Source of the DNA: Chamaelirium japonicum
Taxonomy: Eukaryota; Streptophyta; Magnoliopsida; Liliales; Melanthiaceae
Direction of reading: 5' to 3'
Length of the DNA: 64,000 bases
Assembly (NCBI GenBank): GCA_947650365.1
Contig: OX393549.1
Location: forward strand, 87,981,703 to 88,045,702
A model generated the notes under the pieces. That model ran no database searches, had not been told where the DNA came from, and was given only the letters and a program-made list of their open reading frames with translations. Shown here one piece after another: positions 19,982 through 59,447 of this stretch. The translations under genes were made by a program, and so were the position numbers. The stretch's first letter is position 1. Every line of letters starts with the position of its first letter.

Positions 19982-19985
<4 letters not shown>

Positions 19986-20120
19986 AGAGAGAGAGAGGAA
20001 TGATAAAATGCGGCGTGCGGTGTGTGCGGCGTCGCACTACAGCCACCTGATGCACCGCAGCTGTACATCAGGCGGCTGCGGTGCGACGCCGCACGCACCG
20101 TACGCCGCATCCTGACACGC

Positions 20121-20122: not shown

Positions 20123-20184
<62 letters not shown>
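20123..20184. repeat. (AT)n array
   Basis: About 62 bp of pure AT separating two foldback copies. Confidence 0.95.
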
Positions 20185-25653: not shown

Positions 25654-26071
25654 TAGGGCCGGCAATTTCGGATCCGACACAACCCGATAAGAAGTTAGCG
25701 GGTCTGGGTCAGGGCTAAATGGGTTCGGGTCGTAAAGGAGTCGACACAATAGACCCGTTTAATAACAGGTCGAGTCCGGATTTAGGGTTTGGACACGGTA
25801 GATCGGGAAGACCTGTTTAAAATTCACCGGGTCGTGTCGGGTCGGATCGGGTCGGGTCTACCTGCAATCTGATACTATAATATATAGTATCAGCGGGTCG
25901 GATCGGTTGTGATAAACGGGTCTTATTGGGTCTACCCGTTTATAAACGGGTCGGGTACGGGTTTAGAATATGGACTCGATTAGTTAAACGGGTCGGGTCT
26001 AGTGGTTTTGGACACGATCCGAAGCTAGACAAGACACGAACCCGACCCGACACGACCCATTGCCACCCCTA
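25654..26071 (+). mobile_element. hAT-type MITE, copy 2 (GGGTC-rich family)
   Basis: The 418-bp element starts TAGGGCCGGCAAT and ends ATTGCCACCCCTA. It is flanked by a perfect 8-bp duplication, GTAAAACC, at 25646-25653 and 26072-26079. It is colinear with the copy at 2257 and non-coding. Confidence 0.9.
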
Positions 26072-30509: not shown

Positions 30510-33500
30510 AAACTAAAGCATAAATGACTGTCAAAATCCAATGACGGCCTCTCGAATCAGAGATGATTGGCACTGCCAATTGGGATATGGGTGATTGAAG
30601 CGAAACCGAACCCACGGATTCCAGTCACAAAACTAGAATACCCCCCCCACTAGACTAGAAACAGCGACACAAAAGGATTGCCAATCCCTCCCAATCTGGG
30701 AGGCAATCTATTTGGCCCCTTCATGAGAGAGATGAGTCTCTAATAAACAAATGATGGAGGGTTTGAAAACTCTCAAAATCTGACGAAAACGATTCAAACA
30801 CGAAAGCTTCTTAGCCTCTCTACAATTCCACGAGATTATCTTCATCGAAAGAAGGAACAAAATCATAAAACAAGCTTAAGATCAAAACAGCCCAAAAAAT
30901 AGGGGACTAAAGGATAACAAGAGCTCTGTAAGCTCCTTTCGGCACTTACCTTGACCATCCTCTGCACTAGCCACCACAAAGCCCCCCAAAGGAGCATCTC
31001 CGGAGGATCTTGGAGTTAGGGAAATCACCTCACCACCATCGGATAAGGAGGCCATCCCAGCTACTCGATCCGAAACTAGTTTGACAATCGCCAGATGTTG
31101 AGAAAACGTCGAACCCCCATCCGAAAACCGACAAGCAGTAGGGCCCTCCTGACCGACCGACGATCGAGGAGGAGACTGTAGTTGCTGTTTTCTTCATCGT
31201 CCTTTAGGAGTTCCACTAGAAAGACGGCCAAGGTTAGAAACTCCATCCCCCTCCATATGGAAAACTTCATCTAAAGATACAAAAATAAAAGGAACGTTGG
31301 ACGTGGATGCCCCTACTGCTGCACAGTGGACGATACGGAGCCTGGCATAGAGAGAAGGTCGAAGGATACAGACACACGGCCCGGCGCAGCGGATCCCCGA
31401 AACGTCAAATCCCATCGATGCATCCCATACTGTACCGATCCGATACGGCACAAGATACACAGAAAAACACAGAGACAAAAGAGAGGGATACATGATTTAC
31501 AGAGGTTCACCCCAAACGGGGTTATTTCCTGTCTCTGGTAACCACCTCCTCCAGGAATCCACTATGAAGAAGATAAGCAAGATTATACCTGACGGCACTC
31601 CATACCCTCTAACAAATTCTCACATATCTCTCCACCACAAAAAATGATCATGTGCATCAACAGAGACCAGACTGTCTCCAACATGCGCCAACGGTCCTCC
31701 GAAAAAACCACCAAATAGAGAAGACCAAAACCGAACATGCTACATGATAGATGGAGAAGAAAGCTCTACCTCTTCATGCGCTCTCTCTTCCACAGATTTG
31801 GCTGAACAGATCGCACATGGCAATCTCCAAAAAGATAACCATTACGGGTTCCACAAAAGTCATGATCTAGATACTCACCAGTCACGATCTGTCAGATCAA
31901 TCATCATCGAAGCACCATGGATCTCCCAACGGTCTTTCGCTCCTCATCTCGGACTCGCCCCATCATGGCCTCGGTCTCCATAATGTGGCATTGCCCTCCA
32001 TGGCTCGCCACCATGCCCGAAGGCATCTTCCCCAGAATGGGGGTGTTCTCTAAGTTTTTCTCCAAGTAGAATTTCTTCAGAATTGATCATAGAGCACCCG
32101 CAAAGCGGTGATCCAACACGGCGTCGTGCACGTCGCTCGCCAGCTCTTCAACGGTCCAGGAGAGGAGCAAGGCATGCTCCTCCCCCGGGTTCATCTTATC
32201 TGCAAGAAGCTTCACCAAGAGCCGCCGCCGATTGATCAAAGGATCAAGGATCAAAGATGATCAAAGGTTGATCCAAGAATAAGTTCCCAAAACCCTAGAC
32301 CCCTTTATATACTAGGGGAATAGGTTATAAGAGATTAATCTCGAGATTCCCCCAAAATAGCCCAATCTGGAAAGTGCAATCGTGCAAGACCAAGTCAAAC
32401 CTGTGTCTATCAGGCACAGTCGTGTGCACGACCTGAAAAAGTTGTGCGCATGATTGCCTGTAGCAAGACACGCCTTTCTGGAGAAAGATGCATCGAAAAA
32501 GTAGGGCTCCAGGTCGTGCGCATGACACGACAGTCGTGCGCATGACCTGCCCGAGGAGACGGGTTTGACTCGAGCCATCATCAACACCTACCACCCTATC
32601 CCCAGCACCACCAGGATGCACTCCTCCTGACTACCCAACCTCAAGAGGGGCATTCCCCCTCGCAGCAACATTGTCCTCCGTGGTAACCTTTCGACCACAG
32701 GGAAAAGGATTAGGACCCCCTTGGACCTTGCCCTCAGCACCACCCACCGCCTGTCTACCCCCCTGTCTCCAGACATGGAGCCAACGCATCCCTCACCGCT
32801 TACCGAGGGACCTGCCCATCACCTCCCTGCCTCCTACTTTGAACTACCATCCACCCATAATCAGCTCCAACTGGTTGTGGCTGAACAGGGACAGGTCCAT
32901 GGGGGACTAGAGCTGGGTGTGATGGAGAAGGGACCGAAGAAGACCTGGGATCGACACCACCACTCGAAGACGAGTGAAGATAAGGACAGACATTAGAGAA
33001 ATGCCCAATAAGGTAGGCTTTCATATTGGACAGCTTGCCAGAAAGAAAATTTATCCCCATTTGGTCGAGCCCCATCGATCCAAACTCCTTGTTCAAGGGG
33101 ATTAGAGGTGTCTACTTCCACACAAACCCTAGCGAATTTCCCACGAGAAATGTTTCCCACAAATAAGTCAACATCTACCGGACGACCAGCCGCAGAAGCA
33201 AAGGCCAGCAAATGATCCGTATGCCAAAATTCAAAGGAAAGATCCACTATACAAAGCTAAAACAGTGGCTTTTATAGCCAGATCTAGAGCCGGTTAAAAC
33301 CCTGGCTTCCACAGCTCCAACGCTAGGGTTTGGCCATACAAAACCCAGGGACCTCCAGTAGATATTCGGAGAAGAACATTGCCATTTTCGAATCGAAACA
33401 AGAAAATCCTATAGTTGAGAGAAATTATCGGCCTCCACTGAGTTGTCACTACCCCACATCTTGGGTAGAACCCGCACCGCCACATTCGGATGAAATCCCT

Positions 33501-33816: not shown

Positions 33817-33821
33817 CCCCC

Positions 33822-36705
33822 TGTGGACGCGGAAAAAAGCGCGGGTCGTCTTTATTGCGAATCACACGAGATTACAATTGTGGCCGGGACCCGGGTTGCT
33901 CGGGTGTAGCGAGTCCGGGTTGCGGCGAGTTTTGCTCAGGGGATTGTGGGAAAGATCTTCTGGGGGATCCCTTTGATCCGCGTCTCCATGTGGTGTTCGT
34001 GCGAGAGCTCTGAAGGGGCTGCCCAGGACAGGGGTTTTACAGGGAGAGGGTTTTGGAGAGGCTAAGGAATGTCCACCGTTGTTTTGTCTCTTCCGTGCTT
34101 CGTGCTTTCTCGGCTAGGGGGTTTTCGGCTTCGTTCCTCGGTCTTCGCGTCTTCCTCGTTCCTTGCTTGACCTCGGTGTCCTTGATCGTCGGTTCGCGGC
34201 GTCGATCTAGCTTTTGGCGTTGGCTTTGGCTTTGGCTTTTTGGCTTTGGCTTTGCTCCGGCGTGGCTCTGGCTTTTGCTTTGCTTCGGCGCTTGCACTTG
34301 GACGTAGCTGGGAGAGACTTGCGATGCTTTCGTTCTTCCGGACTTCGCATCGTATCGGCTAGAACGTGCGGTGCTTTTGCTCGTGGCCGGCGTAGTCGCT
34401 TGGCTTTGGCACTTGCGTTGCTTTGGCGCGGGCTTTACTGGGGCTTTGCTTTGGCTTCTTGCGTTGGCTTTAGCTTTGGCGTCAACTCGATCTTCTTCTT
34501 CGAACGACGTGGGCTACTTCTCCGGTGCTTCGACGGTTTACGTATCGACTGGACTTCTCTTCTTCTCCGGGCTTCTTTGGCGTGATCGGAGTCGAAGAAT
34601 GCTTTCGAAGATGGTGGGGGTAGCACCGATCTCCGTGCGACGGTTGTAGCGTCGGCTTTTGTTGATGAAGACGACGAGGGTAGCGACGGTCTCTGTGCGA
34701 CGGTTGTAGCGTCGACTTTTGTTGATGAAGACGACGGGGTCGCGACGCTTCAGACGATCTGCTCCAGGCTTTCTTCTTCGTGGATGGGGCAGGCGTTAGT
34801 CGAAGACGACGGGGTGATGACGCTTCGCTTCTCTCCTCCGGGCTTTGGGGCTTGATCGGGATCGAGGATTTGTTGGAGCCGACGGGGTAGTGCCGCTCCT
34901 CTTCTTCTCCGGGCTTTTGAGCTTGATCGGAGTCGAAGCTTGTTGGAGACGACGGGGTAGTGCCGCTCCTCTTCTTCTCCGGGCTTTTGGGCTTGATCGG
35001 AGTCGAAGCTTGTTGGAGACGACGGGGTAGTGCCGCTCCTCTTCTTCTCCGGGCTTTTGGGCTTGATCGGAGTCGAAGCTTGTTGGAGACGACGGGGTAG
35101 TGCCGCTCCTCTTCTTCTCCGGGCTTTTGGGCTTGATCGGAGTCGAAGCTTGTTGGAGACGACGGGGTAGTGCCGCTCCTCTTCTTCTCCGGGCTTTTGG
35201 GCTTGATCGGAGTCGAAGCTTGTTGGAGACGACGGGGTAGTGCCGCTCCTCTTCTTCTCCGGGCTTTTGGGCTTGATCGGAGTCGAAGCTTGTTGGAGAC
35301 GACGGGGTAGTGCCGCTCCTCTTCTTCTCCGGGCTTTTGGGCTTGATCGGAGTCGAAGCTTGTTGGAGACGACGGGGTAGTGCCGCTCCTCTTCTTCTCC
35401 GGGCTTTTGGGCTTGATCGGAGTCGAAGCTTGTTGGAGACGACGGGGTAATGCCGCTCCTCTTCTTCTCCGGGCTTTTGGGCTTGATCGGAGTCGAAGCT
35501 TGTTGGAGACGACGGGGTAGTGCCGCTCCTCTTCTTCTCCGGGCTTTTGGGCTTTATCTGAGTCGAAGCTTGTTGGAGACGACGGGGTAGTGCCGCTCCT
35601 CTTCTTCTCCGGGCTTTTGGGCTTGATCGGAGTCGAAGCTTGTTGGAGACGACGGGGTAATGCCGCTCCTCTTCTTCTCCGGGCTTTTGGGCTTGATCGG
35701 AGTCGAAGCTTGTTGGAGACGACGGGGTAGTGCCGCTCCTCTTCTTCTCCGGCCTTTGCTTCTGGCGTCTTCGGAGTCGAAGGGTTCTTCTTCTCCGAGC
35801 TTTCTTCTTCGTGCACGGAGTCGAAGGGATGATCTTCGTGTGCAAGGGCCTTCACATTGATGAGGACTTTCAGTAAGCCGATCCCTCGGGACAGGCTTGA
35901 CTGTGCCTCGTGAAGCCTTGGGTCGATGAAGAAGCGTCTCCTCTTCTGCAGAGCTCTGGCGTTTCGTCTTCAATTTCCCGACCATTTTTTCCTTCCCCCA
36001 CCCCCTCTATTTATAGGCAAAGAGGTGGGGAGAGAGATATGGGAACTTTTTAATTTTAAATCCCTTTTGTATCTCTCTCATAATTACCCGGATTTTATTC
36101 ATCCATTGATGAAGGGAATAACATTTAGTTGTTTTCCTTTTCTGGCGGGTGCAATTATGGCTGGATTTTGCGCACGAAATCGATGGCGATCGGGCGCTTC
36201 GTCTTGTGCGTCGGATCGAGGGATCGGCGCAGATCCGCGTGTGTGCAGACGTCATACGCTACCTCCCCCCGCGCATGGCGGTATTTTTTTTCCTTTTCTT
36301 TCTTTTCTTTCCTTTTCTTTTCTTTCCTTTTTCTTTTCTTTCCTTTCTTTTCTTTCCTTTTTCTTTTCTTTCTTTTTTCTTTTCTTTCTTTTTTCTTCCC
36401 TTTCCTTGCAGGGCCGGCCGGCCCCTCCATGGGGTTCGGTCCCCACTAGGGCCGGCCCTATAGGGTTCGGACCCTAGTAGGGGCCGGCCCCTCTTGGGGC
36501 GGGGTCCGAGTCCGTGTCGGCGCGCGCGAGTCGGGTCCGCGTGTCGGGTTTGCATCCACGTCGGCGCGAGCGAGTTGGGTCCGCGTGTCGGGTTTGCATC
36601 CACGTAGGGGCCTTCGAGTCGGGTCCGGGTCCGAGCGCGTCGGGTTTGCATCCACGTCGGCACATGTAAGTCGGGTCCGGGTCCGACAAAATTCGTGTGT
36701 CTACA
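33822..36705 (-). repeat. 3' LTR of the gypsy element
   Basis: This 2884-bp LTR, on the minus strand, starts TGTAGACACACG and ends CGCGTCCACA. It contains the 70-bp array (13 copies of its core word), a TATA box CTATAAATAGAGG (about 36005-36015) and a long purine-rich (AAAGG/AAAAG)n tract on the minus strand at about 36281-36400. Confidence 0.95.
34860..35755 (-). repeat. 70-bp tandem array in the 3' LTR
   Basis: The word GACGGGGTAG recurs exactly every 70 bp from 34881 to 35721, 13 times, with very few differences between units. Units contain GCTTGATCGGAGTCGAAGCT. The array is directly repeated without unique spacers. Confidence 0.97.
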
Positions 36706-36720
36706 AATGCCCCCTCAAGG
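36706..36720 (-). other. Polypurine tract
   Basis: The minus strand reads CCTTGAGGGGGCATT directly before the 3' LTR start TGTAGACAC, as required for plus-strand priming. Confidence 0.8.
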
Positions 36721-37209
36721 ACGAGTGTGTCGATGAGAACGTGTCGGGTTTGGACGCGTAAGAATCGTAGAGCACTTGTCCTTGATTCCTTTTGTGGGCA
36801 GGGTTGGGAGTCTATCTAAGGACCCCTACTCCCTTCATCCGTCATTGTGTTTCTTTGCGAAGGTTCTGCCGGCTTCTGGAGACCGCTGTCGGAAGAGAGC
36901 TGCCTGGGTTTGCACGAGACTTGCTCCGTCTTCCCGGTGTCGCTTCTTTCGTCGGCCTTGTGCTTCTGCGCGACGGTTCTGCCGGCTTCTGGAGACCGTT
37001 GTCGGAAGAGAGCTGCCTGGGTTTGCACGAGACTTGCTCCGTCTTCTCGGTGTCGCCTCTTTCGTCGGCGGCGATGGTGCGCGATTTTGCGGTCGTTGCG
37101 AAGGCGGGCTCGAAGCGACGATGCGACGAGGCTCGAGGCGGGGAGGATGTAGAAGCGCGGCTGAGGTGCGAGTTGCCTTTGCCGCCTCTCTCTTCCTCTT
37201 TCTTCTTCT

Positions 37210-37244
<35 letters not shown>

Positions 37245-39388
37245 GACCACGGGAGCTGCAGCGGCAGTGGCAGGGTCGGCCAGGGCTGCAGCGGCTGGGC
37301 ATGAAGCCAGCGGCGTGCGGCGCGCAGAGCTGGGTGCCGGTGCGAGCAGTTGGCTGTGGCTCTTGCTTGTAGAGAAGACCTTCGCTATGGTTTCGATCAT
37401 CTTCTTCGTTGCGGACCTCTTTTGCTCCAAAGATTGCACGGACGTCGAAGGTAGCCGCTGTACGGAGTTCGAGTGTGGCACGAAGGCGGCTGGAGTGCGA
37501 GGACGGCCACGGTGCATCTCGGCGGAGGACTATTGCCCCTTCTTCGGTGTGGGAGTGCAATGGCGAGGCCGATTGTCGCATCCGAGGTCGATGACGCCGG
37601 CGTAACGAGAGAAGAAGGCGGAGTTGTCGTGGTCGAAAGCGCCGCAAAGAGAGGAGGTGGAGTCGTCGCGGGTCAGGTATGGCGACTCTAACTCCTTTTT
37701 TTTTTTTTTTTTCTTCTCTTTCTTTTCTTTTTTTCTTTTTTTCTTTTTCCTTTTCTTTCCTTTCTTTTCTTTCCTTTTTCTTTTCCTTCCTTTTCTTTTT
37801 CTTTCTTTTCTTTTTTTTTTCTTCTTCTGGTTCTGGTACGCGGGGGCAACGGCAGCAGCGGCTCGGTGCTGCGGTGGCGGCGACGGCCCGGGCGCAGGTC
37901 AGAGGTCGCGGCACGCGCGAAGGGACCCTGGCGCGGGGCGCGAGCGGCGGTGGCTGCGGCACGCGCGGAGTGGCCCTGGCGCGGGGCGGCTGGGGTGTCG
38001 CGGTGGCGGGCCCGGGCGCGGGTGGTGCGAGGCCAGAGGCCGGGGCGGCGACGGTTTGGTCGGGCGCGGCGGCCAGCGGAGGTGGCGCGGAGGTGGAGTC
38101 GGGCCGGCGTCCCCGAGTCGGGCGGCGAAGGAGGGGGGCTGCAGGCCCCCCCTTTTTCTTTCTCTCTTTTTTTTTTTTTTTTTTTTTGTGTGTGTCGGGT
38201 GCTGATTGGAGAGGGAGCGCGGTGCAGGCTGCTGCTGCCCTCTTCTTTTTTTTTTTTTTTTTCTTTCTTTCTTTCTTTTTCTTTCCTTCTTCTTTTGGTC
38301 CGCGAAGGCGGCAGGTGGCGCGGCTGTCGGAGCAGGCAGCGGCGGCGACGGCCCACAGCGCTAGCTGCAGTATGCGCGGCGCGGGGGCCGGGAGCGAGTG
38401 GCGCGGAGGCCCGGCGCGGTCGCAGAAGCAACGAGGGCGGCCGCCGGTGCGACTCTGAGTCGGGCGGGCCCCGATTGGGTCAGAGGTGGAACGCAGTGGC
38501 AATGGCGGTGCGATTCCGAGTCGGCCGGGCGTGGGGCGCAGCTGCGGCTCGGCGCGCGGGGTTGAGTGTAGGCGGCATGGGTACGTGGCGCAGACGACGG
38601 GCGTGTGGAGCGGCGCCGGCGCGGCATAGGCGGGCGGTGGCCAGGCTTCAAGCTGCGCGAGTGGTGTGCGGCGCTTGAAGACGAAGGCTTCCGTCGGCTT
38701 GGAGACGAAGGCTTCTTCGATGCTTGGAGACCGTCGGCGGAAGAGTGTTGCCCGGGGTTGCACGAGACTTGCTCCGTCTTCCCGGTGTCGCCTCTTTCGT
38801 CGGCGGCGGTGGCGGCGGCGATGGTGCGCGTCGCTTGAAGACGAAGGCCTCCGTCGGCTTGGAGACGAAGGTTTCTTCGATGCTCGGAGACCGTCGGCGG
38901 AAGAGTGCTGCCTGGGGTTGCACGAGACTTGCTCCGTCTTCCCAGTGTCGCCTCTTTCGTCGATGGCGGCGGCGAAGGTGCGCGGAGCTTGAAGACGAAG
39001 GCTTCCGTCGGCTTGGAGACGAAGGCTTCTTCGATGCTTGGAGACCGTTGGCGGAAGAGTGCTGCCTGGGGTTGCACGAGACTTGCTCCGTCTTCCCGGT
39101 GTCGCCTCTTTCGTCGACGGCGGCGGCGATGGTGCGCGGCGCTTGAAGACGAAGGCTTCCGTCGGCTTGGAGACGAAGGCTCCTTTGGAGGCTTGAAGAC
39201 GAAGGATTCTTTGACGGCTCGCGAAGGTGCGCGGAGCTTGGAGCCGAAAGATTCTTCAGCGGAGTGTTATCGTCTTCTTGGTGCGGGAGCATAATGACGA
39301 CGGCACGGCGAAAAGACGAAGCCGAGTGTGGTGGCGATCGCCTGGTGCGAGGATGAGTCGGAGGCGTTGAAGGCCAAGGAAGGTGGCT

Positions 39389-39422
<34 letters not shown>

Positions 39423-40377
39423 GAATTGACTTTACCTCTCGATCGGTCTTGCGCTTTTCATATCCTTGCAAGATTCGTCCCCCTGAGTACCTTCCGAAGG
39501 CTGGCTAGATTATTGATGAGGTCAACCGCGGGTTTAGAGTTACTAGCGAGGTTGCACCTTTCTGGTAGCAATGTCAGCTTGAAGGATACCGAGAAGGGCG
39601 TTCTGAAGAGGATGACGAGGCCACGAGCATCAACAAGGAGTAGACTGCTTTGGTTGTCTTTTGCTTGTCGATCTTGACCTTGATGACAGCTCCAGTGGTT
39701 CTTTTGGTTGTGGAGGTCACGAAGGCTGCGGTTGTTGTTTATGCGTCCGCCATTCTTCGGGTTGCTGCTTTTGACTTCAGTGGCAGTTTCCATCCTTCAG
39801 GTGGGCCTGAGCTTTTGCATGAGCCCGGTGGATTTCAAGGCAACGACTCTTTTTCTGCGGAGCAGATGCGCACCTTCTTTGGAGGGTGGCGAGCTTCATT
39901 GCTTACGACCGTCTTCGCTGGAGGACGCTTTCTTGGGCTTAGTTGCGACTCTGGAGTTGCAGCGCGTGTAAGCTGCGGAGGGCGAGCCACTTCGGCGCCT
40001 TAAGGACTTCGACTTGCTACTCGTGCGTCGCTTTAGAAGCTGGAGTTCCATTTGGGGAAAGCTCGAGCGACCGAGAAGATGTCTGGAGCAGAGCTTGCGA
40101 AGCAGCGTGCATAGCTGACGACGCGTCGGAAGCTGACGGTTTTTTTTACCTCTGGAGTTGCAGCGCGTGTAAGCTGCGGAGGGCGAGCTGCTTTGACGCC
40201 TCAAGGACTGTGACTTTCTTGTCATCTTTTGGTTTGCTGACTGGACTTGTGGATTTGCACTTGTTCTTCTCTGGGCTGGCCTTCTCGGACGACGTTTGGG
40301 ATGTTTCTTTTGTATGGACTGAACCTTTGTAGGTTGCCTACGTACCCTACTGAGAGGGATCAAGTCGCACGTAGTTC

Positions 40378-40426
<49 letters not shown>

Positions 40427-40447
40427 GGCAAGGGGGGTAACCTTGCG
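36721..40447 (-). repeat. Non-coding 3' region of the gypsy element: tandem modules and poly(A) tracts
   Basis: A module containing ACGAGACTTGCTCCGTCTTC occurs five times (about 36914, 37027, 38762, 38922 and 39076), the last three as a tandem set of about 155-160 bp units. Plus-strand T runs, i.e. A runs in element orientation, lie at about 37210-37243, 37697-37712, 38168-38187, 38247-38262, 39391-39420 and 40380-40425, several extended by (TTTC)n. GC-rich stretches between them give long but meaningless Arg/Lys- or Ala-rich frames. Tat-lineage elements are known to carry long non-coding and tandemly repeated DNA between the coding region and the 3' LTR. Confidence 0.75.
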
Positions 40448-43400
40448 TTAGGCAAAGTACCTTTTGAGGGACTTGCCACTGGTAGGCAGAGTCGCCACTG
40501 GTTCGCAGCTGTCGCCCACCTTCTTCGCTTCAATATAGTTGGAAGTGAAGATCTTCTTGACTGGAGTTTTGACGATTGCTGGAGTTTGACTGGAGTCGAT
40601 GCCCCGGCAATTTGGAAGGATTTGTTCGCCGCTTTTGCAGAGACGAGCTTGAGTCTTTGTCAGGCGATGTGGTATTGCAGCTGAGGGTAGTGATCCCATG
40701 TGTGCCATGCTTTCTTTGCTGCGGCTGGATTTGAACATTGACTCGGTGGAGTTTTGCCCCCGAGTGTTTTCTGACTTGATTGCAAGTTGCTCAGAGCTGG
40801 TGCGCTCGGAAGACTCGGTTGAGCTCGAGATGTGCAACAGACCACGTAACGGTAGTGTCATCTCTTGCAACGTGCTGAAGTTGGCCCCGAAGAATGATAA
40901 CGCTGGTTCCTTTGCTGGAGGGGAAGGCGATCGTCCTGGTTTGCGAAGCCATTGAGGTATGAGCCGCAGGACTGAAGCAACTTGAGCAGGCAACGGAATG
41001 CATCGCATCGAGCTTGATTTGAAGTTGATGTGAATTTTCCGTCTTGGTGCTGGCGCTTCTTTGTCTTTGTGTGCTGTCTGGATGGAGGATGTCACTAGTT
41101 TTGCAAGTGGAGAGCTTTTGTCCATCGCAGCTGTTTTGACTTCCTGGACTTGTGGAGCTTTTGCTGGAGGAGCTTCTGCAACGAAGTCTTTGGCCTCGTA
41201 AAACTTGGCATCAGCAAGGTGTGCTTTAGCCTTGTTGAACAGCTTGCCGTTGGCGGCGATGCTTCTCCCCATGCTTTCGATGTTAATGCTGCTTTCTTCA
41301 TCGTCTTTCCGGAGCACTTGGTGAACTTCTATTATTCTGCAGGAGATCTTAAAGTTTTGACCAGCTTCAAGGAAGCAAATAGGAAAGAACTTCTGGAGTG
41401 TCACTGGCTCTAGAGAGCTTTGCTGGAGGAGATTTTTCAGATTTGCTGGTGGTACTTTGGACGTCTTTCTTCCTGGAGCTTCATTCTTTTCCTTGAAGGA
41501 CTTTCTTCTGAGGAGTTTTCTTGTCGCCCGATCTTTCTCATGGTTAGCTAGGCGTGCTATCCTGTAGCTTGATCGTCGTGGCCTTCTCCTTCGAGGCGCC
41601 ATAGCCCATGTGTTAAGATCTTCCTCGCCAAGGTGAAGAACTGGTGTTGCGACTGAAGGCTCTTCCTTGATCAGAAGGACTTGCACTTCTAGAGACGGTA
41701 CCAATTCATCTTCTGATCCCCAGCTGGTTGGCTTGATTTCTTTATTTGGAATCGAAGGAGGCCTGGAGTAGAGGACATAATAGTCAATTTTGCCCGATGG
41801 TTGGCCTAGCAGGTTGACTTCGGGGCTTCTTTGTTCGTCTCTAGCTTTGAGCAGGTGCCGGGACGTAGCTTTGTTTGGAAGAGGGAGTGCTTGCATGAGA
41901 GACGGTTGCCCCCAAGACAGTAAGGATTTGGCCCTAGGCACTGAAGAAGTATGCCGTCGTCGTCTTCTTGGACTGCCCCCTTTCTTTGAGTCATCAACGG
42001 TGGACTGCCCCCCTTCTGCGAGGACCGACGGGGCATCTTGCAATTCGTCGTCCGAAGTAGAAGTATCACCGTTGTCGGGATTCGTAATGGAGATATGATT
42101 GACGGCAGCCATGGGTGGGTGGGTGGGTGTTGAGACGAAGTCCTCGATTGGCATCCCCAGACGATTGAACGCCGACTTCTTCTTTGATTGTTTGACTGGC
42201 CCGAGCCTCTCGAACACGGATGTGTGTTTTCGATTCGACCAGTCTTTACCACCTCTGGTTTGCTTCCGGAACAAGGCTTGGCATCGAGCCCGTCGTCGTC
42301 TTCTCCTGCTGTCTGGATGGCTGAGGTAGGTAGAGCGTGCATCGGAGATTGTCGATTTTTCGGCTGCTTCATCTGCCATCCTCGCCTCGATGTAGTTCGA
42401 GGTGAAGTTCTTCTTCGCTGCGGTTCTGATGACCAACGGAGCTTGACTGGAGCCGATGCCTCGGCGGTTCGGGGGAATTTGCTCTCCGTTTTGAAACAGC
42501 CGAGCTTGAGTTCTCGTCATCCCATGCGGAGTTGCTGCTGGTGGGAGTGTGCCCATGGCGCTTTCCTCGTTGTAGCCGGCTCTGAACAGCAACTTGGCAG
42601 CATTTTGCCCCCAACTCCCTTCCGGTTTGAATCTGAGTTGCTCGAGGTCTGCTGATTCGACAGGTCTACTTGGGTCCGGAGCTTGCGTCAGACTAGGTAG
42701 TGGCACCGTCATTTCTTGCAGAGTGATGACGTTGGCCTGAGATAACGACGGGGCCAGCTTCCTTGTCGGAGTAGAAGGCGATCGCTCGGATTTACGGAGC
42801 CACTGCGGCGCGAGGCGCAGGATAGGTGCCGTTTGGACTGGCAAAGGGGTATGTTGCATTGCTCTTGGCTCGAAGCTGATGCGCATCCTTTGCCCAGGTT
42901 TCGGCGTTCCTTGGACCTTGAGTCTTGCCCCTTCAGAGGGTGGCGCCGAATTTACTGGAAGAGGAGTCTTGTCCTGCTTCACTTCTTCAATCTTTTGGGC
43001 TCGAGGAGCTTTAGCTGGCAGAACTTCCGCGACCAGGCCCTTTGCTTGGTAGAACTTAGCGTCGGCCAGGTGTGCCTCGGCCTCGTTGAATGGCTTGTTG
43101 TCCGCAACTATGCACCTCTCCATGCCTACTTCGTAGTATTTGAGGCACTGGTGCCAGGTGGAGACCACGATGCCGTTCTCATGCAGCCATGGTCTTTCCA
43201 ACAGGAGGCGATATGACGTCTGGCAATCGATGATGTGGAAGAGGACCGTTGTATCCAGCGGGCCGATGGAAAGCTTCAAACGAATGATTCCGACGATGGA
43301 CTGTCCGCCCTGGTTGAAGCCTTGAATGATCAATTGAATTGGTGAGAGCTGGTCGTCGGTGATGCCGAGTTGCCGCATTGTCTGGATGGGCAGGATGTTG

Positions 43401-46400
43401 ACGGTAGAGCCACAGTCCAACAAGATTCGGTTCACTGGCTTCTCCTTGATGTATCCCGAGACGTAAAGAGGCCGGTTGTGCAATCGCGCCCCGAGTTGCA
43501 GGTCCTCATCTGAAAAGGTTATCGTCGCATCACACGAGGCCATAGCTTTGCGTCTTTGATCATCCTTCCTCTTCCTTTTGTAGCTATCTGGATCGGCCAA
43601 GGCCGCCGCCATTGCTAGGCGAGCCTTCTTCGGAAGATGCAAAGCTTCTACGAGAGGCATATGCAAGATCGCTTCGTCGTGAGCCGCGGTGCCCCCATCG
43701 TTGGAGTCGTCCCCCTCATCGGTGGAGTCGCCTTCTTCAGAAGTTTCGCCTTCGTTCTTTCCTTCCGATACTTCATGGACTTCGACCATGCAACAAGACA
43801 CCTTGACGTGCTGGTCCACTGGGAGGAAGTGATCCGGGAAGAACTCTTGCAACGTTGTCGGCTCTGGAAGACTCTGCTGAAGGATATCGTCTTGGCTTGC
43901 TGGCGGCACTTTGAACGCCTTCCTCCCTGGAGCCTTGCCTTTCTTCTTGTAGGTCCTCCGCTTGGTGAATCCCCTCATCACACGGTCTTGTTTAAGCTTC
44001 TTTTCTTGCCACGGCTTTCGCCGCCGCGGTAGCATGATCCATGCTTCTTCGTCGGTGGATTCCCCTTCGCTAGGATGATGGTCGACAGAAGCAACTGGTT
44101 CCCTCGAAGGCACTTGTTCTTCCTGAGCCTCTACTGGCTCGTCTTCCGATCCCCAGCCGGTGGGCTTGATTTCGTCGATTGGAATGGACAGAGGCCTTGA
44201 GTAGAGGACGTAATAGTCGAACTTCCCCGAAGGCTGGCCCAGCAGACCGACTTCCGGATCTCCCTGCTCGTATCTTTTCTGGAGAGCGTATTGGGACGTA
44301 GCTTGACTGGAAGGGACTTGCTCTTCTCGAGGCTCTACTGGCGCGTCTTCCGATTCCCAGCCGGTGGGCTTGATTTCGTTGACCAAAACGGACGAAGGCT
44401 TTGAGTAGAGGACGTAGTAGTCGAACTTGCCCGAAGGCTGGCCCAGCAAACCGACTTCTGGATCTCCTTGCTCGTATCTCCTTTGGAGCGTTCGTTGGGA
44501 TGCAGTATTGCTTGGAAGAGGTGCTGGCATGAGCGATGATTGCCCCCTGGGCAGCGGTGTTTCCTCCTCGGTGAGCGCAGGAGTATGTTGACGTCGCTTT
44601 GAGACTTTCGGCTGGGAAGTTGACTTAGCGATTGGAGCTTGACGATTGATGCGCAATTTGGGCATGCTTCGCCGAGCAGCGACGAGTACTGGCGAGAAGG
44701 AGCCGAAGGTGATGGACGTCATGTTGGCCGTAGCAACCTCCCCGGAGTCGATCTCTATCTTCCCTTGCTTAGCGAGCGCCATGATTCTTTCCTTGAAGAC
44801 GAAGCATCTTTCGATGGGATGACTCACCACCTGGTGGTATTTGCAGAAGAGAGGGTCGTCGACACGATGCATCTGCTCGGGCCTCTTTGAAGGAGGGAGC
44901 TCTATCATCTTCTCTTGCAGCAGCTGGTCGAACATGGAGGAGACTTCCGAGTCTGGGAAAGGGTACTCCTTGGCTTCGAGCTCCTCGAGAGTCATCCTTT
45001 GTCTTAGCGGCGGAGGCGGTGGTATGGCGACTCCCTTCTTCTGATCTGGTTTGCCACCGATCTTGAGCGGCTTGGAGGTTGAAGCGACGTCAGCAACATT
45101 GACTTGTTTCAGTTTCGTTGCCGGTGGCTTGTCCTTCTTCTCTATCTTCAAGAAGTCCTTGTTCTTCAAGTCCCCGCGGTTTGCTAGGCTGAGTTCCATG
45201 TCATGAGCCCGAGTTGCGAGTTCTTCGAAAGACCGAGGCTTGATACCTTTGAGGATGTAGAGCAGACCCCAGTGCATGCCTTGGGTGCACATCTCGATGG
45301 CCGAGTCTTCAGACAAGCGGTCTCGTGAATTCAGCGCGAGGTTCCTCCACCTGTCGATGTAGTCGATCACTGGCTCATCTTTCCTTTGCTTGACGGCGGT
45401 GAGTTCGGTCATACTGACTGTACGTCTGGTGCTGTAGAAGCGATTGAGGAACTCCCTTTCCATCTGGTCCCAGCTGTCGATGGTCCCTGCAGGAAGATCA
45501 ACGTACCAGTCGAACGCGTTGCCTTTGAGGGTGCGAACGAATTGCTTCACCATCTCGTCGCCATATGTGCCGGCATTATTGCAGGTCTCGATGAAGTGGG
45601 CGACGTGCTGTCTCGGATTTCCCTTTCCATCGAAGTGCTGAAACTTTGGCGGCTGGAATCCGACTGGGAAGCGTAGCTGCTGGATCCTCGTAGTGTAGGG
45701 CTTCGAGTATGCCGCCGTGATCGGAGGAAGGCTACTGCCGTGGGATCGCATCATGTCGGCTATCAATGCTTGGACTTGCTGAGCACTCATCGCAGCCGCT
45801 GCCGGAGGTTGTGTGGCCACCGAGGCTGGCATTGGGGAGACGACTTCCACTGGGATGGGAGCCGAAGAGAGCCCTGGAGTAACTGCTTGAATCGTCGAAA
45901 CAACCTCTGTAGGAGCGGGAGTTGAAGACGGAACTGGAGCGGCTACTGGAGAAGCGACGGGTTGGCCGACTGGTGCAGCGTCCTTTGCGCTTAGCTTTTG
46001 GAGCAGAGTGTTGATATGACGATCCTTCTCCTCCATTAGCCGAGTAATCTGCGCCATGTGCTCGTTCATCTGCATGACTTGGAGCTGAAGAGCGGACGGA
46101 GGATGGTGACGGAGAACGTCTCGGTGTTGCATGTTCGCATCCTCGCCATCATCATCGGAGACGTAGTTACGCCGACTTGCTTCTGGCTGATGATTGATGT
46201 TTGCCCCCTGCAGAGGAGGTGCAACGTCTGCTGGAGAACCCGAACGGGTTCGGGGTTGGGGCTGGTCCTCCCCAAACTTCTGGACATGGGCTCCAGGATC
46301 GAGGCTCGTTTCTTCATGCACCAGGGCCTCGTCGGCGCTTTGGCGAGCATCTTCGGTAGTAGCTTCTGGCACGAAGACGTCCGCAAGAGTCCGAGTACGC

Positions 46401-46528
46401 CGAGTGTAGACGTGCACCATTGGAGGAGCATCACCCTCCGGATTTACTGGATCACCGTGTCGGAGTAGAGGAGACTCGGCGATTGGTGAGAGGCTTGGAG
46501 CAAACGCATCGTTGTTTGTTCCGGCCAT
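40448..46528 (-). CDS. Gag-protease polyprotein of the Tat-like element
   Basis: One uninterrupted frame of 2026 aa from the first ATG (MAGTNND). Residues about 300-430 match plant Ty3-gypsy gag (HFIETCNNAGTYGDEMVKQF, then FLNRFYSTRRT and a CTQGMHWGLLYILKGIKP segment). A CKYHQVVSHPIERC motif near residue 560 is a noncanonical zinc-finger-like element seen in Tat relatives. A retropepsin-type protease lies near residue 1030 (ILLDCGSTVNILP, later YRLLLERPWLHENG). Phrase GQPSGK(F/I)DYYVLYS occurs three times (about 703, 770, 1580), and the region after the protease (about 1150-1400) recurs at about 1770-2000, so a large part of the C-terminus is a diverged duplicate. Much longer than a usual gag-protease. 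No polymerase domains follow. Confidence 0.85.
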   Translation of the reverse strand: MAGTNNDAFAPSLSPIAESPLLRHGDPVNPEGDAPPMVHVYTRRTRTLADVFVPEATTEDARQSADEALVHEETSLDPGAHVQKFGEDQPQPRTRSGSPADVAPPLQGANINHQPEASRRNYVSDDDGEDANMQHRDVLRHHPPSALQLQVMQMNEHMAQITRLMEEKDRHINTLLQKLSAKDAAPVGQPVASPVAAPVPSSTPAPTEVVSTIQAVTPGLSSAPIPVEVVSPMPASVATQPPAAAAMSAQQVQALIADMMRSHGSSLPPITAAYSKPYTTRIQQLRFPVGFQPPKFQHFDGKGNPRQHVAHFIETCNNAGTYGDEMVKQFVRTLKGNAFDWYVDLPAGTIDSWDQMEREFLNRFYSTRRTVSMTELTAVKQRKDEPVIDYIDRWRNLALNSRDRLSEDSAIEMCTQGMHWGLLYILKGIKPRSFEELATRAHDMELSLANRGDLKNKDFLKIEKKDKPPATKLKQVNVADVASTSKPLKIGGKPDQKKGVAIPPPPPLRQRMTLEELEAKEYPFPDSEVSSMFDQLLQEKMIELPPSKRPEQMHRVDDPLFCKYHQVVSHPIERCFVFKERIMALAKQGKIEIDSGEVATANMTSITFGSFSPVLVAARRSMPKLRINRQAPIAKSTSQPKVSKRRQHTPALTEEETPLPRGQSSLMPAPLPSNTASQRTLQRRYEQGDPEVGLLGQPSGKFDYYVLYSKPSSVLVNEIKPTGWESEDAPVEPREEQVPSSQATSQYALQKRYEQGDPEVGLLGQPSGKFDYYVLYSRPLSIPIDEIKPTGWGSEDEPVEAQEEQVPSREPVASVDHHPSEGESTDEEAWIMLPRRRKPWQEKKLKQDRVMRGFTKRRTYKKKGKAPGRKAFKVPPASQDDILQQSLPEPTTLQEFFPDHFLPVDQHVKVSCCMVEVHEVSEGKNEGETSEEGDSTDEGDDSNDGGTAAHDEAILHMPLVEALHLPKKARLAMAAALADPDSYKRKRKDDQRRKAMASCDATITFSDEDLQLGARLHNRPLYVSGYIKEKPVNRILLDCGSTVNILPIQTMRQLGITDDQLSPIQLIIQGFNQGGQSIVGIIRLKLSIGPLDTTVLFHIIDCQTSYRLLLERPWLHENGIVVSTWHQCLKYYEVGMERCIVADNKPFNEAEAHLADAKFYQAKGLVAEVLPAKAPRAQKIEEVKQDKTPLPVNSAPPSEGARLKVQGTPKPGQRMRISFEPRAMQHTPLPVQTAPILRLAPQWLRKSERSPSTPTRKLAPSLSQANVITLQEMTVPLPSLTQAPDPSRPVESADLEQLRFKPEGSWGQNAAKLLFRAGYNEESAMGTLPPAATPHGMTRTQARLFQNGEQIPPNRRGIGSSQAPLVIRTAAKKNFTSNYIEARMADEAAEKSTISDARSTYLSHPDSRRRRRRARCQALFRKQTRGGKDWSNRKHTSVFERLGPVKQSKKKSAFNRLGMPIEDFVSTPTHPPMAAVNHISITNPDNGDTSTSDDELQDAPSVLAEGGQSTVDDSKKGGSPRRRRRHTSSVPRAKSLLSWGQPSLMQALPLPNKATSRHLLKARDEQRSPEVNLLGQPSGKIDYYVLYSRPPSIPNKEIKPTSWGSEDELVPSLEVQVLLIKEEPSVATPVLHLGEEDLNTWAMAPRRRRPRRSSYRIARLANHEKDRATRKLLRRKSFKEKNEAPGRKTSKVPPANLKNLLQQSSLEPVTLQKFFPICFLEAGQNFKISCRIIEVHQVLRKDDEESSINIESMGRSIAANGKLFNKAKAHLADAKFYEAKDFVAEAPPAKAPQVQEVKTAAMDKSSPLAKLVTSSIQTAHKDKEAPAPRRKIHINFKSSSMRCIPLPAQVASVLRLIPQWLRKPGRSPSPPAKEPALSFFGANFSTLQEMTLPLRGLLHISSSTESSERTSSEQLAIKSENTRGQNSTESMFKSSRSKESMAHMGSLPSAAIPHRLTKTQARLCKSGEQILPNCRGIDSSQTPAIVKTPVKKIFTSNYIEAKKVGDSCEPVATLPTSGKSLKRYFA

Positions 46529-46575
46529 TGCAAACTTCAAGCAGCTTCTTCAACCGTACGGATGAAAGGAGAAGA

Positions 46576-46594
46576 GGTCCCACCGGGCGTGCCA
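46576..46594 (-). other. Primer binding site
   Basis: The minus strand reads TGGCACGCCCGGTGGGACC, beginning six bases inside the 5' LTR. A TGG start complements a tRNA 3' CCA end; this string is familiar from plant Tat-lineage elements. Confidence 0.8.
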
Positions 46595-47260
46595 GAAATC
46601 TGTGGACGCGGAAAAAAGCGCAGGTCGTCTTTATTGCGAATCACACGAGATTACAATTGTGGCCGGGACCCGGGTTGCTCGGGTGTAGCGAGTCCGGGTT
46701 GCGGCGAGTTTTGATCAGGGGATTGTGGGAAAGATCTTCTGGGGGATCCCTTTGATCCGCGTCTCCACGTGGTGTTCGTGCGAGAGCTCTGAAGGGGCTG
46801 CCCAGGACAGGGGTTTTACAGGGAGAGGGTTTTGGAGAGGCTAAGGAATGTCCACCGTTGCTTTGTCCCTTCCGTGCTTCGCGCTTTCTCGGCTACGGGG
46901 TTTTCGGCTTTGTTCCTCGGTCTTCGCGTCTTCCTCGTTCCTTGCTTGACCTCGGTGTCCTTGATCGTCGGTTCGCGGCGTCGATCTAGCTTTTGGCGTT
47001 GGCTTTGGCTTTGGCTTTTTGGCTTTGGCTTTGCTCCGGCGTGGCTCTGGCTTTTGCTTTGCTTCGGCGCTTGCACTTGGACGTAGCTGGGAGAGACTTG
47101 CGATGCTTTCGTTCTTCCGGACTTCGCGTCGTATCGGCTAGAACGTGCGGTGCTTTTGCTCGTGGCCGGCGTAGTCGCTTGGCTTTGGCACTTGCGTTGC
47201 TTTGGCGCGGGCTTTACTGGGGCTTTGCTTTGGCTTCTTGCGTTGGCTTTAGCTTTGGCG

Positions 47261-48694
47261 TCAACTCGATCTTCTTCTTCGAACGACGTGGGCTACTTCT
47301 CCGGTGCTTCGACGGTTTACGTATCGACTGGACTTCTCTTCTTCTCCGGGCTTCTTTGGCGTGATCGGAGTCGAAGAATGCTTTCGAAGATGGTGGGGGT
47401 AGCACCGATCTCCGTGCGACGGTTGTAGCGTCGGCTTTTGTTGATGAAGACGACGAGGGTAGCGACGATCTCCGTGCGACGGTTGTAGCGTCGACTTTTG
47501 TTGATGAAGACGACGGGGTAGCGACGCTTCAGACGATCTGCTCCAGGCTTTCTTCTTCGTGGATGGGGCAGGCGTTAGTCGAAGACAACGGGGTGATGAC
47601 GCTTCGCTTCTCTCCTCCGGGCTTTGGGGCTTGATCGGGATCGAGGATTTGTTGGAGCCGACGGGGTAGTGCCGCTCCTCTTCTTCTCCGGGCTTTTGAG
47701 CTTGATCGGAGTCGAAGCTTGTTGGAGACGACGGGGTAGTGCCGCTCCTCTTCTTCTCCGGGCTTTTGGGCTTGATCGGAGTCGAAGCTTGTTGGAGACG
47801 ACGGGGTAGTGCCGCTCCTCTTCTTCTCCGGGCTTTTGGGCTTGATCGGAGTCGAAGCTTGTTGGAGACGACGGGGTAGTGCCGCTCCTCTTCTTCTCCG
47901 GGCTTTTGGGCTTGATCGGAGTCGAAGCTTGTTGGAGACGACGGGGTAGTGCCGCTCCTCTTCTTCTCCGGGCTTTTGGGCTTGATCGGAGTCGAAGCTT
48001 GTTGGAGACGACGGGGTAGTGCCGCTCCTCTTCTTCTCCGGGCTTTTGGGCTTGATCGGAGTCGAAGCTTGTTGGAGACGACGGGGTAGTGCCGCTCCTC
48101 TTCTTCTCCGGGCTTTTGGGCTTGATCGGAGTCGAAGCTTGTTGGAGACGACGGGGTAATGCCGCTCCTCTTCTTCTCCGGGCTTTTGGGCTTGATCGGA
48201 GTCGAAGCTTGTTGGAGACGACGGGGTAGTGCCGCTCCTCTTCTTCTCCGGGCTTTTGGGCTTGATCGGAGTCGAAGCTTGTTGGAGACGACGGGGTAGT
48301 GCCGCTCCTCTTCTTCTCCGGGCTTTTGGGCTTGATCGGAGTCGAAGCTTGTTGGAGACGACGGGGTAGTGCCGCTCCTCTTCTTCTCCGGGCTTTTGGG
48401 CTTGATCGGAGTCGAAGCTTGTTGGAGACGACGGGGTAGTGCCGCTCCTCTTCTTCTCCGGCCTTTGCTTCTGGCGTCTTCGGAGTCGAAGGGTTCTTCT
48501 TCTCCGAGCTTTCTTCTTCGTGCACGGAGTCGAAGGGATGATCTTCGTGTGCAAGGGCCTTCACATTGATGAGGACTTTCAGTAAGCCGATCCCTCGGGA
48601 CAGGCTTGACTGTGCCTCGTGAAGCCTTGGGTCGATGAAGAAGCGTCTCCTCTTCTGCAGAGCTCTGGCGTTTCGTCTTCAATTTCCCGACCAT
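47261..48694 (-). CDS. Long basic repetitive open frame within the 5' LTR, doubtful as a gene
   Basis: A 477-aa frame opens at an ATG (48694) some 25 bases after the LTR TATA box and runs through the 70-bp array. Because 70 is not a multiple of 3, the translation cycles through all three frames with a 70-aa period (RRRRGAALPRRLQQAS..., PIKPKSPEKKRSGTTP..., GEEEERHYPVVSN...), very rich in Arg, Lys, Ser and Pro. The 3' LTR carries the equivalent 457-aa frame (34482-35855). No domain is recognised. It may be an accidental reading of a stop-free repeat; the start codon may lie at the very edge of the transcript. Confidence 0.25.
   Translation of the reverse strand: MVGKLKTKRQSSAEEETLLHRPKASRGTVKPVPRDRLTESPHQCEGPCTRRSSLRLRARRRKLGEEEPFDSEDARSKGRRRRGAALPRRLQQASTPIKPKSPEKKRSGTTPSSPTSFDSDQAQKPGEEEERHYPVVSNKLRLRSSPKARRRRGAALPRRLQQASTPIKPKSPEKKRSGITPSSPTSFDSDQAQKPGEEEERHYPVVSNKLRLRSSPKARRRRGAALPRRLQQASTPIKPKSPEKKRSGTTPSSPTSFDSDQAQKPGEEEERHYPVVSNKLRLRSSPKARRRRGAALPRRLQQASTPIKPKSPEKKRSGTTPSSPTSFDSDQAQKPGEEEERHYPVGSNKSSIPIKPQSPEERSEASSPRCLRLTPAPSTKKKAWSRSSEASLPRRLHQQKSTLQPSHGDRRYPRRLHQQKPTLQPSHGDRCYPHHLRKHSSTPITPKKPGEEEKSSRYVNRRSTGEVAHVVRRRRSS
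47640..48464 (-). repeat. 70-bp tandem array in the 5' LTR
   Basis: Same unit as in the 3' LTR; the core word recurs 12 times from 47660 to 48430. The single-copy difference accounts for the whole 70-bp length difference between the LTRs. Confidence 0.97.
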
Positions 48695-49460
48695 TTTTTT
48701 CTTCCCCCACCCCCTCTATTTATAGGCAAAGAGGTGGGGAGAGAGATATGGGAACTTTTTAATTTTAAATCCCTTTTGTATCTCTCTCATAATTACCCGG
48801 ATTTTATTCATCCATTGATGAAGGGAATAACATTTAGTTGTTTTCCTTTTCTGGCGGGTGCAATTATGGCTGGATTTTGCGCACGAAATCGATGGCGATC
48901 GGGCGCTTCGTCTTGTGCGTCGGATCGAGGGATCGGCGCAGATCCGCGTGTGTGCAGACGTCATACGCTACCTCCCCCCGCGCATGGCGGTATTTTTTTT
49001 CCTTTTCTTTCTTTTCTTTCCTTTTCTTTTCTTTCCTTTTTCTTTTCTTTCCTTTCTTTTCTTTCCTTTTTCTTTTCTTTCTTTTTTCTTTTCTTTCTTT
49101 TTTCTTCCCTTTCCTTGCAGGGCCGGCCGGCCCCTCCATGGGGTTCGGTCCCCACTAGGGCCGGCCCTATAGGGTTCGGACCCTAGTAGGGGCCGGCCCC
49201 TCTTGGGGCGGGGTCCGAGTCCGTGTCGGCGCGCGCGAGTCGGGTCCGCGTGTCGGGTTTGCATCCACGTCGGCGCGAGCGAGTTGGGTCCGCGTGTCGG
49301 GTTTGCATCCACGTAGGGGCCTTCGAGTCGGGTCCGGGTCCGAGCGCGTCGGGTTTGCATCCACGTCGGCACATGTAAGTCGGGTCCGGGTCCGACAAAA
49401 TTCGTGTGTCTACACCCCCAAATCACATTAGGAGCTCTACCCTCTTACTTTCTTGGTATA

Positions 49461-53172: not shown

Positions 53173-53653
53173 TAGGGGTGGCAATGGGTCATGTCAGGTC
53201 GGGTTCGTGTCATGTCTAGTTTCGAGTCGTGTCTAAAACCCCTAGACCCGGACCCGACCCGTTTAACTAATCGTGTCTAGATTCTAAACCCATACCCGAC
53301 CCGTTTATAAATGGGTAGACCCGATAAGACCCGTTAGACCAGTTTACCACACGTGTTTATTCAGTTGACCCAATCCGACCTGATCCGACTCAACCCGACA
53401 TTAGTCAATAGACCCGCTGATACTATATATTACAGTATCGGATTGCGGGTAGACCTGACCCGACCCGATACGACCCGGTGAATTTTTAAACGGGTCTTCC
53501 CGTGTCTACCGTGTCCAGACCCTAAATCCGGACCCGACCCGTTTATTAAACGGGTCTATCGTGTCAACCCGTTTATGACTCGAGCCCGTTTAATCCTGAC
53601 CCAGACCCGCTAACTTCGTGTCGGTAGTGTCGGATCCTAAATTGCCAGACCTA
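53173..53653 (-). mobile_element. hAT-type MITE, copy 3 (GGGTC-rich family)
   Basis: The 481-bp element is in opposite orientation to the copies at 2257 and 25654. It starts TAGGGGTGGCAAT and ends ATTGCCAGACCTA, with a perfect 8-bp duplication GTAAAAGT at 53165-53172 and 53654-53661. Confidence 0.9.
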
Positions 53654-53661
53654 GTAAAAGT

Positions 53662-58978
<5,317 letters not shown>

Positions 58979-59029
<51 letters not shown>
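58979..59029. repeat. (TA)n array
   Basis: About 50 bp of TA between the foldback and the family 2 element. Confidence 0.93.
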
Positions 59030-59032
<3 letters not shown>

Positions 59033-59435
59033 CAGGATCTGATGACCCCCCCCCCCCCATCAAAATTTTGACCCATTAATAAGCCAGCACCCTTTGAGGC
59101 ACCTAGAGGTTTTAGAATGGGCTGATTTTCTGTAGACATGTTGTCTATGATATGTTGATCATCCTCACAAAAAATCAACCCATTCTAAAACCTCTAGGTG
59201 CATCAAAGGGTGCTCTTCAAATCAACCGTTAAAATTGACAATCAAAAACCGTTGATTTGAAGTGCGCATTTGATGCACCTAGAGGTTTTAGAATGGGGAT
59301 TTTTTTGTGAGGATGATCAACATACCATAGACAACATCCCTACAAAAAATCAGCCCATTCTATAACCTCTAAGTGCCACAAACGGTGTTGGGTTTTTAAT
59401 GAGTCAAAATTTGCTGGGTCATCCGATCCTGACCC
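59030..59435. mobile_element. TA-anchored MITE, family 2, copy 2
   Basis: The 406-bp unit starts GGGTCAGGATCTGATGACCC and ends GGGTCATCCGATCCTGACCC, clear inverted termini, flanked by (TA)n on both sides. Internal arms GCACCTAGAGGTTTTAGAAT recur inverted. A poly-C tract (59046-59059) interrupts the left terminus. Confidence 0.8.
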
Positions 59436-59447
59436 ATATATATATAT

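Follow-up and report, generated by a model that had tools for sequence, protein, structure and literature searches.

A young, structurally complete LTR retrotransposon

The 64,000-nucleotide stretch of the Chamaelirium japonicum genome analyzed here (contig OX393549.1 of assembly GCA_947650365.1; hereafter, the window) contains a full-length long terminal repeat (LTR) retrotransposon of 15.6 kb, which lies on the minus strand at 33822-49414 with CCCCC on both sides. We propose that it is probably a semi-autonomous plant element of the Ty3/gypsy class, one that supplies its own Gag and protease (Gag-Pro) and borrows its polymerase and integrase. In a self-comparison of the window, a single pair of long direct repeats bounds the element, and both repeats run TGT...ACA as read on the plus strand. 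The gag-protease frame, the candidate primer site, and the polypurine tract are all on the minus strand, which makes the right LTR the 5' LTR and the left one the 3' LTR.

33817-33821, unstranded: target-site duplication CCCCC, left copy (flank inspection)
33822-36705, minus strand: 3' LTR, 2884 bp (self-comparison, exact end mapping)
36706-36716, minus strand: polypurine tract GAGGGGGCATT, abutting the 3' LTR
46577-46594, minus strand: candidate primer-binding site TGGCACGCCCGGTGGGAC, starting with TGG, 6 nt inside the 5' LTR
46601-49414, minus strand: 5' LTR, 2814 bp (self-comparison, exact end mapping)
49415-49419, unstranded: target-site duplication CCCCC, right copy

The first-pass annotation, made from the letters alone, had described a structurally complete element with nearly identical LTRs; every part it named was located, at exactly the coordinates it gave, and its inference of youth stands. 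Specifically, the LTRs differ by 17 substitutions (14 transitions and 3 transversions) in 2814 aligned bases, which corresponds to 99.4% identity and a Kimura two-parameter (K2P) distance of 0.0061, and their difference in length equals one 70-bp tandem unit. This distance places the insertion at ~0.23 million years ago under 1.3e-8 substitutions per site per year, a rate that has been applied to plant LTRs (PMC5818461), and at 0.43 million years ago under 7e-9. The differences are unevenly spread, with 13 of the 17 confined to the final 987 of the 2884 columns of the alignment, and nine involve a CG dinucleotide that is present in one LTR or the other. The latter fit the decay of methylated cytosines, and the age may thus be overestimated. 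Together, the LTR ends, the target duplication, the polypurine tract, the candidate primer site, and the LTR identity indicate that an RNA of this element was recently copied and integrated.

The candidate primer site lies at an offset of 6 nt, compared with the range of 0-5 nt used for imperfect sites in PMC6317226. No exact self-priming stretch of 9-14 nt was found in the 5' LTR, no tRNA gene was found in the window, and the first 15 bases of the site had no match in a full-text literature search. Rfam likewise returned no match in the window.

An intact Gag-Pro frame

The interior is dominated by one long open reading frame (ORF), whose residues are numbered here from position 46540. Its features, all on the minus strand, include two stretches, linkers A and B, that each occur twice.

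40448-46528, minus strand: Gag-Pro ORF, 2026 codons from the first ATG at 46528 (stop-to-stop 40448-46549, 2033 codons)
45272-45541, minus strand: capsid domain, PF03732 Retrotrans_gag, aa 334-423, E 6.4e-13 (Pfam)
44804-44845, minus strand: CHHC zinc-knuckle-like motif CKYHQVVSHPIERC, aa 566-579 (motif inspection)
43739-44308, minus strand: linker A, first copy, aa 745-934
43316-43462, minus strand: retropepsin-like protease core, PF13650 Asp_protease_2, aa 1027-1075, E 0.025, below cut-off (Pfam)
42359-43123, minus strand: linker B, first copy, aa 1140-1394
41288-41875, minus strand: linker A, second, diverged copy, aa 1556-1751
40502-41272, minus strand: linker B, second, diverged copy, aa 1757-2013

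By comparison, the longest frames in 300 first-order Markov sequences matched to the interior in composition reached 532 codons at most, with a median of 243. The open gag-protease frame reported at first pass is real and intact, with a clear gag assignment and a protease assignment that remains below the Pfam cut-off. The capsid also matched Arc over a wider stretch when compared by sequence (E 5.7e-4). Arc is a domesticated Ty3-type capsid. A single-sequence structural model of the capsid was all-helical and marginal (mean predicted local distance difference test score, pLDDT, 48.8), and a fold search with it placed two Arc chains first (E 0.017 and 0.037) and returned nothing at E 0.001 or better; we give these hits little weight, given template modeling scores of 0.23-0.28 and root-mean-square deviations of 19.5 and ~20.

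The protease stretch carries an active-site-like motif, LLDCGS, at aa 1040-1045. A second protease profile, gag-asp_proteas, scored below cut-off in the ORF (E 0.2), and an alignment to the solved structure of retroviral-like aspartic protease 1 (E 0.073) set DCG opposite DSG. The single-sequence model of this stretch (mean pLDDT 35) was too poor for use. Among plant elements, the middle residue of the DSG-type protease motif varies, and we therefore do not call the protease dead. One further profile, NYD-SP28, fell below cut-off in the ORF (E 0.0038). Relatives of Gag-Pro were also sought, with 901 residues as the query, in viral and prokaryotic contig collections; these gave 1 and 36 pattern matches, respectively, none of which was confirmed, a result that is uninformative about plants.

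No polymerase in the interior

The interior showed no reverse transcriptase (RT), RNase H, or integrase (INT) when all six frames of 36706-46599 were searched against Pfam-A with stops read as X and E values up to 1; only gag and protease matched. The profile search thus bears out the absence of these domains that had been noted from the letters. Reading frames masked in this way recovered the element's own gag and the MYB domain of a neighboring locus, which indicates that the method detects domains in masked frames, as gauged by these two controls rather than by a plant RT. Beyond the ORF stop, the three sense frames of the remaining 3.7 kb showed no RT, RNase H, or integrase in a comparison with PDB sequences, where only a ribosomal protein and Tic100 matched at E up to 1. 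The same six-frame Pfam search of the interior found neither TRP28 (PF04195), the antisense strand included, nor the plant mobile domain (PF10536), nor ATHILA ORF-1 (PF03078), and NCBIfam gave no match in the 3' region.

36706-40447, minus strand: region between the ORF and the 3' LTR, 3.7 kb, no domain above cut-off
36845-37069, minus strand: 113-bp tandem repeats
38657-39200, minus strand: 154-bp tandem repeats

This 3' region also holds three pure runs of T (A on the sense strand), at 37212-37243 (32 bases), 39391-39421 (31 bases), and 40379-40425 (47 bases), the last shortly past the ORF stop. They could be the poly-A tails of captured RNAs or simple repeats, and we do not favor either. 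We rejected the idea that the other long frames of the LTR array and the 3' region are coding, given that the 70- and 154-bp units are not multiples of three and that several frames are open together. The matches in these regions, to RPN2_C (E 0.0026), PSP94 (E 0.00039), and Hyd_WA (E 0.28), were likewise discarded, as they fall below cut-offs and come from frames that are repetitive or of low complexity.

A duplicated half of the frame

Absent from the first-pass annotation, and added by this analysis, is an internal duplication in the C-terminal half of the Gag-Pro frame. When the last 530 residues of the frame were compared with the first 1500, the second copy of linker A matched the first at E 5e-49 and that of linker B at E 1e-65. 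The stretches that flank the protease are thus present twice and in the same order, the second time without the ~205 residues that hold the protease. The two copies of linker A are 54% identical over aligned codons, with differences of 0.33, 0.28, and 0.55 at the three codon positions (186 codons) and a ratio of nonsynonymous to synonymous differences per site (pN/pS) of 0.37 (95% interval 0.30-0.47); its synonymous divergence, dS, was not computable. For linker B, identity is 47%, the differences are 0.33, 0.30, and 0.48 (255 codons), pN/pS is 0.44 (95% interval 0.36-0.55), and dS is 1.44. Silent sites between the copies are hence saturated or nearly so. A shorter repeat, around LLGQPSGK, recurs at aa 698, 766, and 1577, with pairwise dN/dS (the ratio of nonsynonymous to synonymous substitution rates) of 0.18-0.34.

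Judged from these codon patterns, the linker copies were probably read as protein for a long time after they parted, and a frame that has been dead since that time is hard to reconcile with the constraint. A pairwise pN/pS speaks for the two copies jointly, and it cannot tell which of them was constrained or whether one has since relaxed. A review of additional frames in the LTR elements of plants contains no word starting with "duplicat" (PMC7264820); no dedicated literature search on duplicated halves was made, and we do not claim that the arrangement is unpublished.

The origin of the second half is a question of its own, whose likelihoods do not add to those of the alternatives weighed further below. 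Rather than from tandem duplication within the lineage, it may stem from the RNA of another, diverged gag-pro family, joined in frame through template switching, an origin that we consider quite possible, if somewhat short of even chances. The copies are more diverged, in protein and at silent sites alike, than would be expected of a recent arrangement, and recombination among gag variants has been described for the wheat element RLG_Quinta (PMC11302176). Nothing decisive speaks against template switching, yet if a tandem duplication had occurred long ago and its second protease had since been lost, the outcome would look identical, and a single copy cannot separate the two.

Predicted transcription signals and the LTR array

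Each LTR carries a promoter-like box and a long tandem array.

33851-33856, minus strand: AATAAA polyadenylation-like signal, ~30 nt before the LTR end
34804-35757, minus strand: 70-bp tandem array of the 3' LTR, 13.6 units, past the TATA box and within the part predicted to be transcribed
36008-36015, minus strand: promoter-like (TATA) box TATAAATA of the 3' LTR, sense offset 691 of the LTR
36094-36099, minus strand: second AATAAA, upstream of the TATA box
47583-48466, minus strand: 70-bp tandem array of the 5' LTR, 12.6 units, one fewer than in the 3' LTR
48717-48724, minus strand: promoter-like (TATA) box TATAAATA of the 5' LTR, sense offset 691 of the LTR

If the TATA box and the AATAAA at the LTR end act as such, nearly the whole of the LTR past the TATA box, the 70-bp array included, would be transcribed, and the leader from the predicted RNA start to the gag ATG would span ~2.2 kb. 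The arrays differ by one unit, though both LTRs are normally copied from one template, which would fit slippage during or after reverse transcription.

Surroundings of the element

The window holds 30 stop-to-stop frames of at least 180 codons, eight of them outside the element (the longest 302 codons). Seven of these eight were run against Pfam, with a MYB domain in two and nothing in five. No polymerase turned up in a six-frame Pfam search of three further 5-kb stretches, which cover ~15 of the 48.4 kb beyond the element; the other 33 kb were scanned through the frames just mentioned and one reading of 13900-16599. At 14707-15944 (minus strand), two overlapping frames carry a MYB DNA-binding domain (E 2.4e-19 and 4.1e-10) and mark a MYB-related gene, the only clear host gene in the parts scanned.

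A decayed DUF4283 sequence lies at 33119-33428 (minus strand) in two frames (E 2.6e-7, and 0.003, below cut-off), ~400 bases from the insertion site. At 3173-5750 is an old, short LTR element with ~1.2 kb between direct repeats of ~700 bp, which are 82% identical and start with TGTTGAGGATG; its first repeat is directly followed by TGGTATCAGAGC, which we take to be an initiator-Met tRNA primer site. Six frames of 2000-6998 contained no Pfam domain at E 0.01. Palindromic (foldback) repeats bordered by AT repeats, ~77-82% alike and resembling a miniature inverted-repeat element, occur at 19905-20184 and 58725-59028, and one further repeat has three dispersed copies, one of them inverted, at 2275-2706, 25653-26071, and 53173-53654 (80-88% alike in aligned pieces). 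A cluster of direct and inverted repeats, 80-82% alike, occupies 57270-59448, and five open frames of at least 180 codons fall at 57837-58704, four of which were run against Pfam with no match.

Known relatives and classification

Semi-autonomous Gag-protease elements have been described before, and the kind is an established one. RLG_Sabrina ranks with the most abundant elements in both wheat and barley, with the Gag-proteinase form accounting for 5397 of 15,427 full-length wheat copies, and RLG_WHAM, which codes for Gag and proteinase only, reaches similar copy numbers (PMC9744471). The Gag-proteinase form, RLG_Sabrina_SA, is termed semi-autonomous there, and both Sabrina_SA and WHAM are proposed to rely on the autonomous RLG_Wilma as a partner, with which they share the primer site and the first nine LTR nucleotides. 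By description, the element studied here resembles these two in being of the Gypsy class and coding for Gag and a proteinase, in our element a putative one, without RT and integrase. It differs in its size (15.6 kb, versus 8.1-8.3 kb for Sabrina_SA, whose primer site matches tRNA-Asp), and its duplicated protease-flanking half and 70-bp LTR array are unmentioned for Sabrina_SA and WHAM in sections 2.7 and 2.8 of PMC9744471.

Similar divisions of labor have been reported elsewhere. In Alopecurus myosuroides, Retand clusters 2 and 3b (55 and 43 copies, chosen for identical LTRs) are marked as having GAG and aspartic proteinase and lacking RNase H and integrase, with a long, 4.1-kb region before the 3' LTR (PMC11963269); this rests on a Table 1 that has no RT column and shows two such clusters where the accompanying text counts one. 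In contrast to our element, these clusters carry TRP28 and have LTRs of 564-577 bp, rather than 2.8 kb. RLG_Quinta, with its wheat partner RLG_Cereba, also codes for Gag, lacks RT and integrase, and is proposed to supply Gag and be mobilized by its partner, but it is centromere-targeted, derived from Cereba, and described as having no coding capacity beyond Gag and one domain of unknown function (PMC11302176). In maize, Zeon and Cinful and 25 further split families have gag and pol on different copies of one family (PMC8547701), the difference being that Zeon is described as coding for GAG. There is thus no support for the first-pass views that such an element is uncommon and that the terminal-repeat elements with a GAG domain (TR-GAG) are the class closest to it. 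TR-GAG elements share an LTR structure, a Gag, and the absence of the Pol region (PMC5818461, PMC10552921), but our element has a protease-like domain as well, and TR-GAG, used as a structural label, fits it loosely. Wording that describes a pol-less gag-protease element had no match in a full-text literature search.

Assignment to the Ty3/gypsy class rests on the Ty3-type Gag capsid, as seen in the matches to PF03732 and Arc, since RT phylogeny and the order of RT, RNase H, and INT require a pol region, and none was found in the element. The label "Tat-like," also given at first pass, is unproven: the Tat lineage, which includes Retand and Ogre, is set apart by an additional RNase H (aRH) domain (PMC6317226), which cannot be sought in an element without pol. 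The LTRs, at 2814 and 2884 bp, are outside the Retand range of 315-1194 bp (PMC11963269). The missing TRP28 argues only weakly against Retand, because the antisense TRP28 frame is present in 97% of recently active Retand clusters in one survey (PMC11963269) and in 23% of Retand elements in another (PMC6317226). Similarly weak is the absence from the interior of the Ogre marker, PF10536, and the Athila marker, PF03078, which are carried by 57% and 16% of members, respectively (PMC6317226).

A probable semi-autonomous element and its alternatives

We consider it likely that the element contributes its own Gag-Pro and depends on others for the rest. In such a cycle, the LTR promoter would yield a full-length RNA whose long leader bears the 70-bp array; the Gag-protease polyprotein translated from this RNA would assemble the particles; RT, RNase H, and integrase would be provided in trans by an autonomous relative that recognizes the shared primer site, polypurine tract, and LTR ends; and the DNA copy would have been integrated, with its 5-bp target duplication, roughly 0.2-0.4 million years ago. 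Besides the signs of recent copying, the missing pol domains, the long open frame, and the constraint between its linker copies, this reading is favored by the CpG observed/expected ratio of the element, 1.06 (at a GC content of 0.56), versus 0.69 (and 0.44) in the rest of the window. Its coding content also recurs in elements known to be mobile, RLG_Sabrina_SA and RLG_WHAM, and Quinta and Zeon are similar.

Several points weigh against it. No second copy of any part of the element was found elsewhere in the window (blastn, E 1e-10), and from one known copy, the existence of the pol-less form as a family, rather than a single defective copy, is unproven. No autonomous partner was seen in the scanned parts of the window, and the primer site is a candidate that we matched to no tRNA. 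The protease, too, may be inactive, in view of its hits below Pfam cut-offs and the DCG aligned to DSG.

The last point leads to one alternative, that the element is a pure parasite that contributes no working protein, its protease being inactive or its polyprotein unmade, while a partner gives both Gag and Pol. The predicted leader between the TATA box and the gag ATG would, in addition, be an obstacle for ordinary translation. Set against this are the uninterrupted 2026-codon frame and the constraint on its internal copies, and we regard pure parasitism as unlikely, though it fares best among these rivals. About as improbable, or slightly more so, is a single defective copy, in which pol was deleted from an RNA of an autonomous family, either ahead of reverse transcription or in the course of it, and the proteins of intact siblings then integrated it a single time, leaving the gag-protease frame as a young remnant. 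The one copy known here would fit such an accident, and the domain-less, repeat-bearing 3.7 kb before the 3' LTR resembles the region between pol and the 3' LTR of Retand elements (PMC11963269). However, the protease is followed not by an abrupt junction but by diverged second linker copies, in frame and under codon-level constraint with silent sites at or near saturation, which makes the arrangement probably old, unless the autonomous family has the same duplication upstream of its pol. Finally, an assembly artefact or nested chimera is very improbable: LTR tandem arrays are generally prone to mis-assembly, but the target duplication and LTR ends match, the window has no N bases, and the 6.1-kb frame is unbroken.

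A bolder version of the semi-autonomous reading, which we put forward as speculative and rather doubtful, is that the 2026-residue protein is a long-conserved helper in a two-component system, that the arrangement without pol dates back tens of millions of years, and that the second, protease-less copy now serves as a structural module, having replaced pol behind the protease. The internal duplication could help to date the loss of the polymerase. More broadly, this element gives the semi-autonomous gag-protease group a further member that is young and intact; the worked examples of the group compared here come from grasses. If further copies and a partner are found, the system would allow a test of whether such elements are parasites of, or contributors to, a shared particle.

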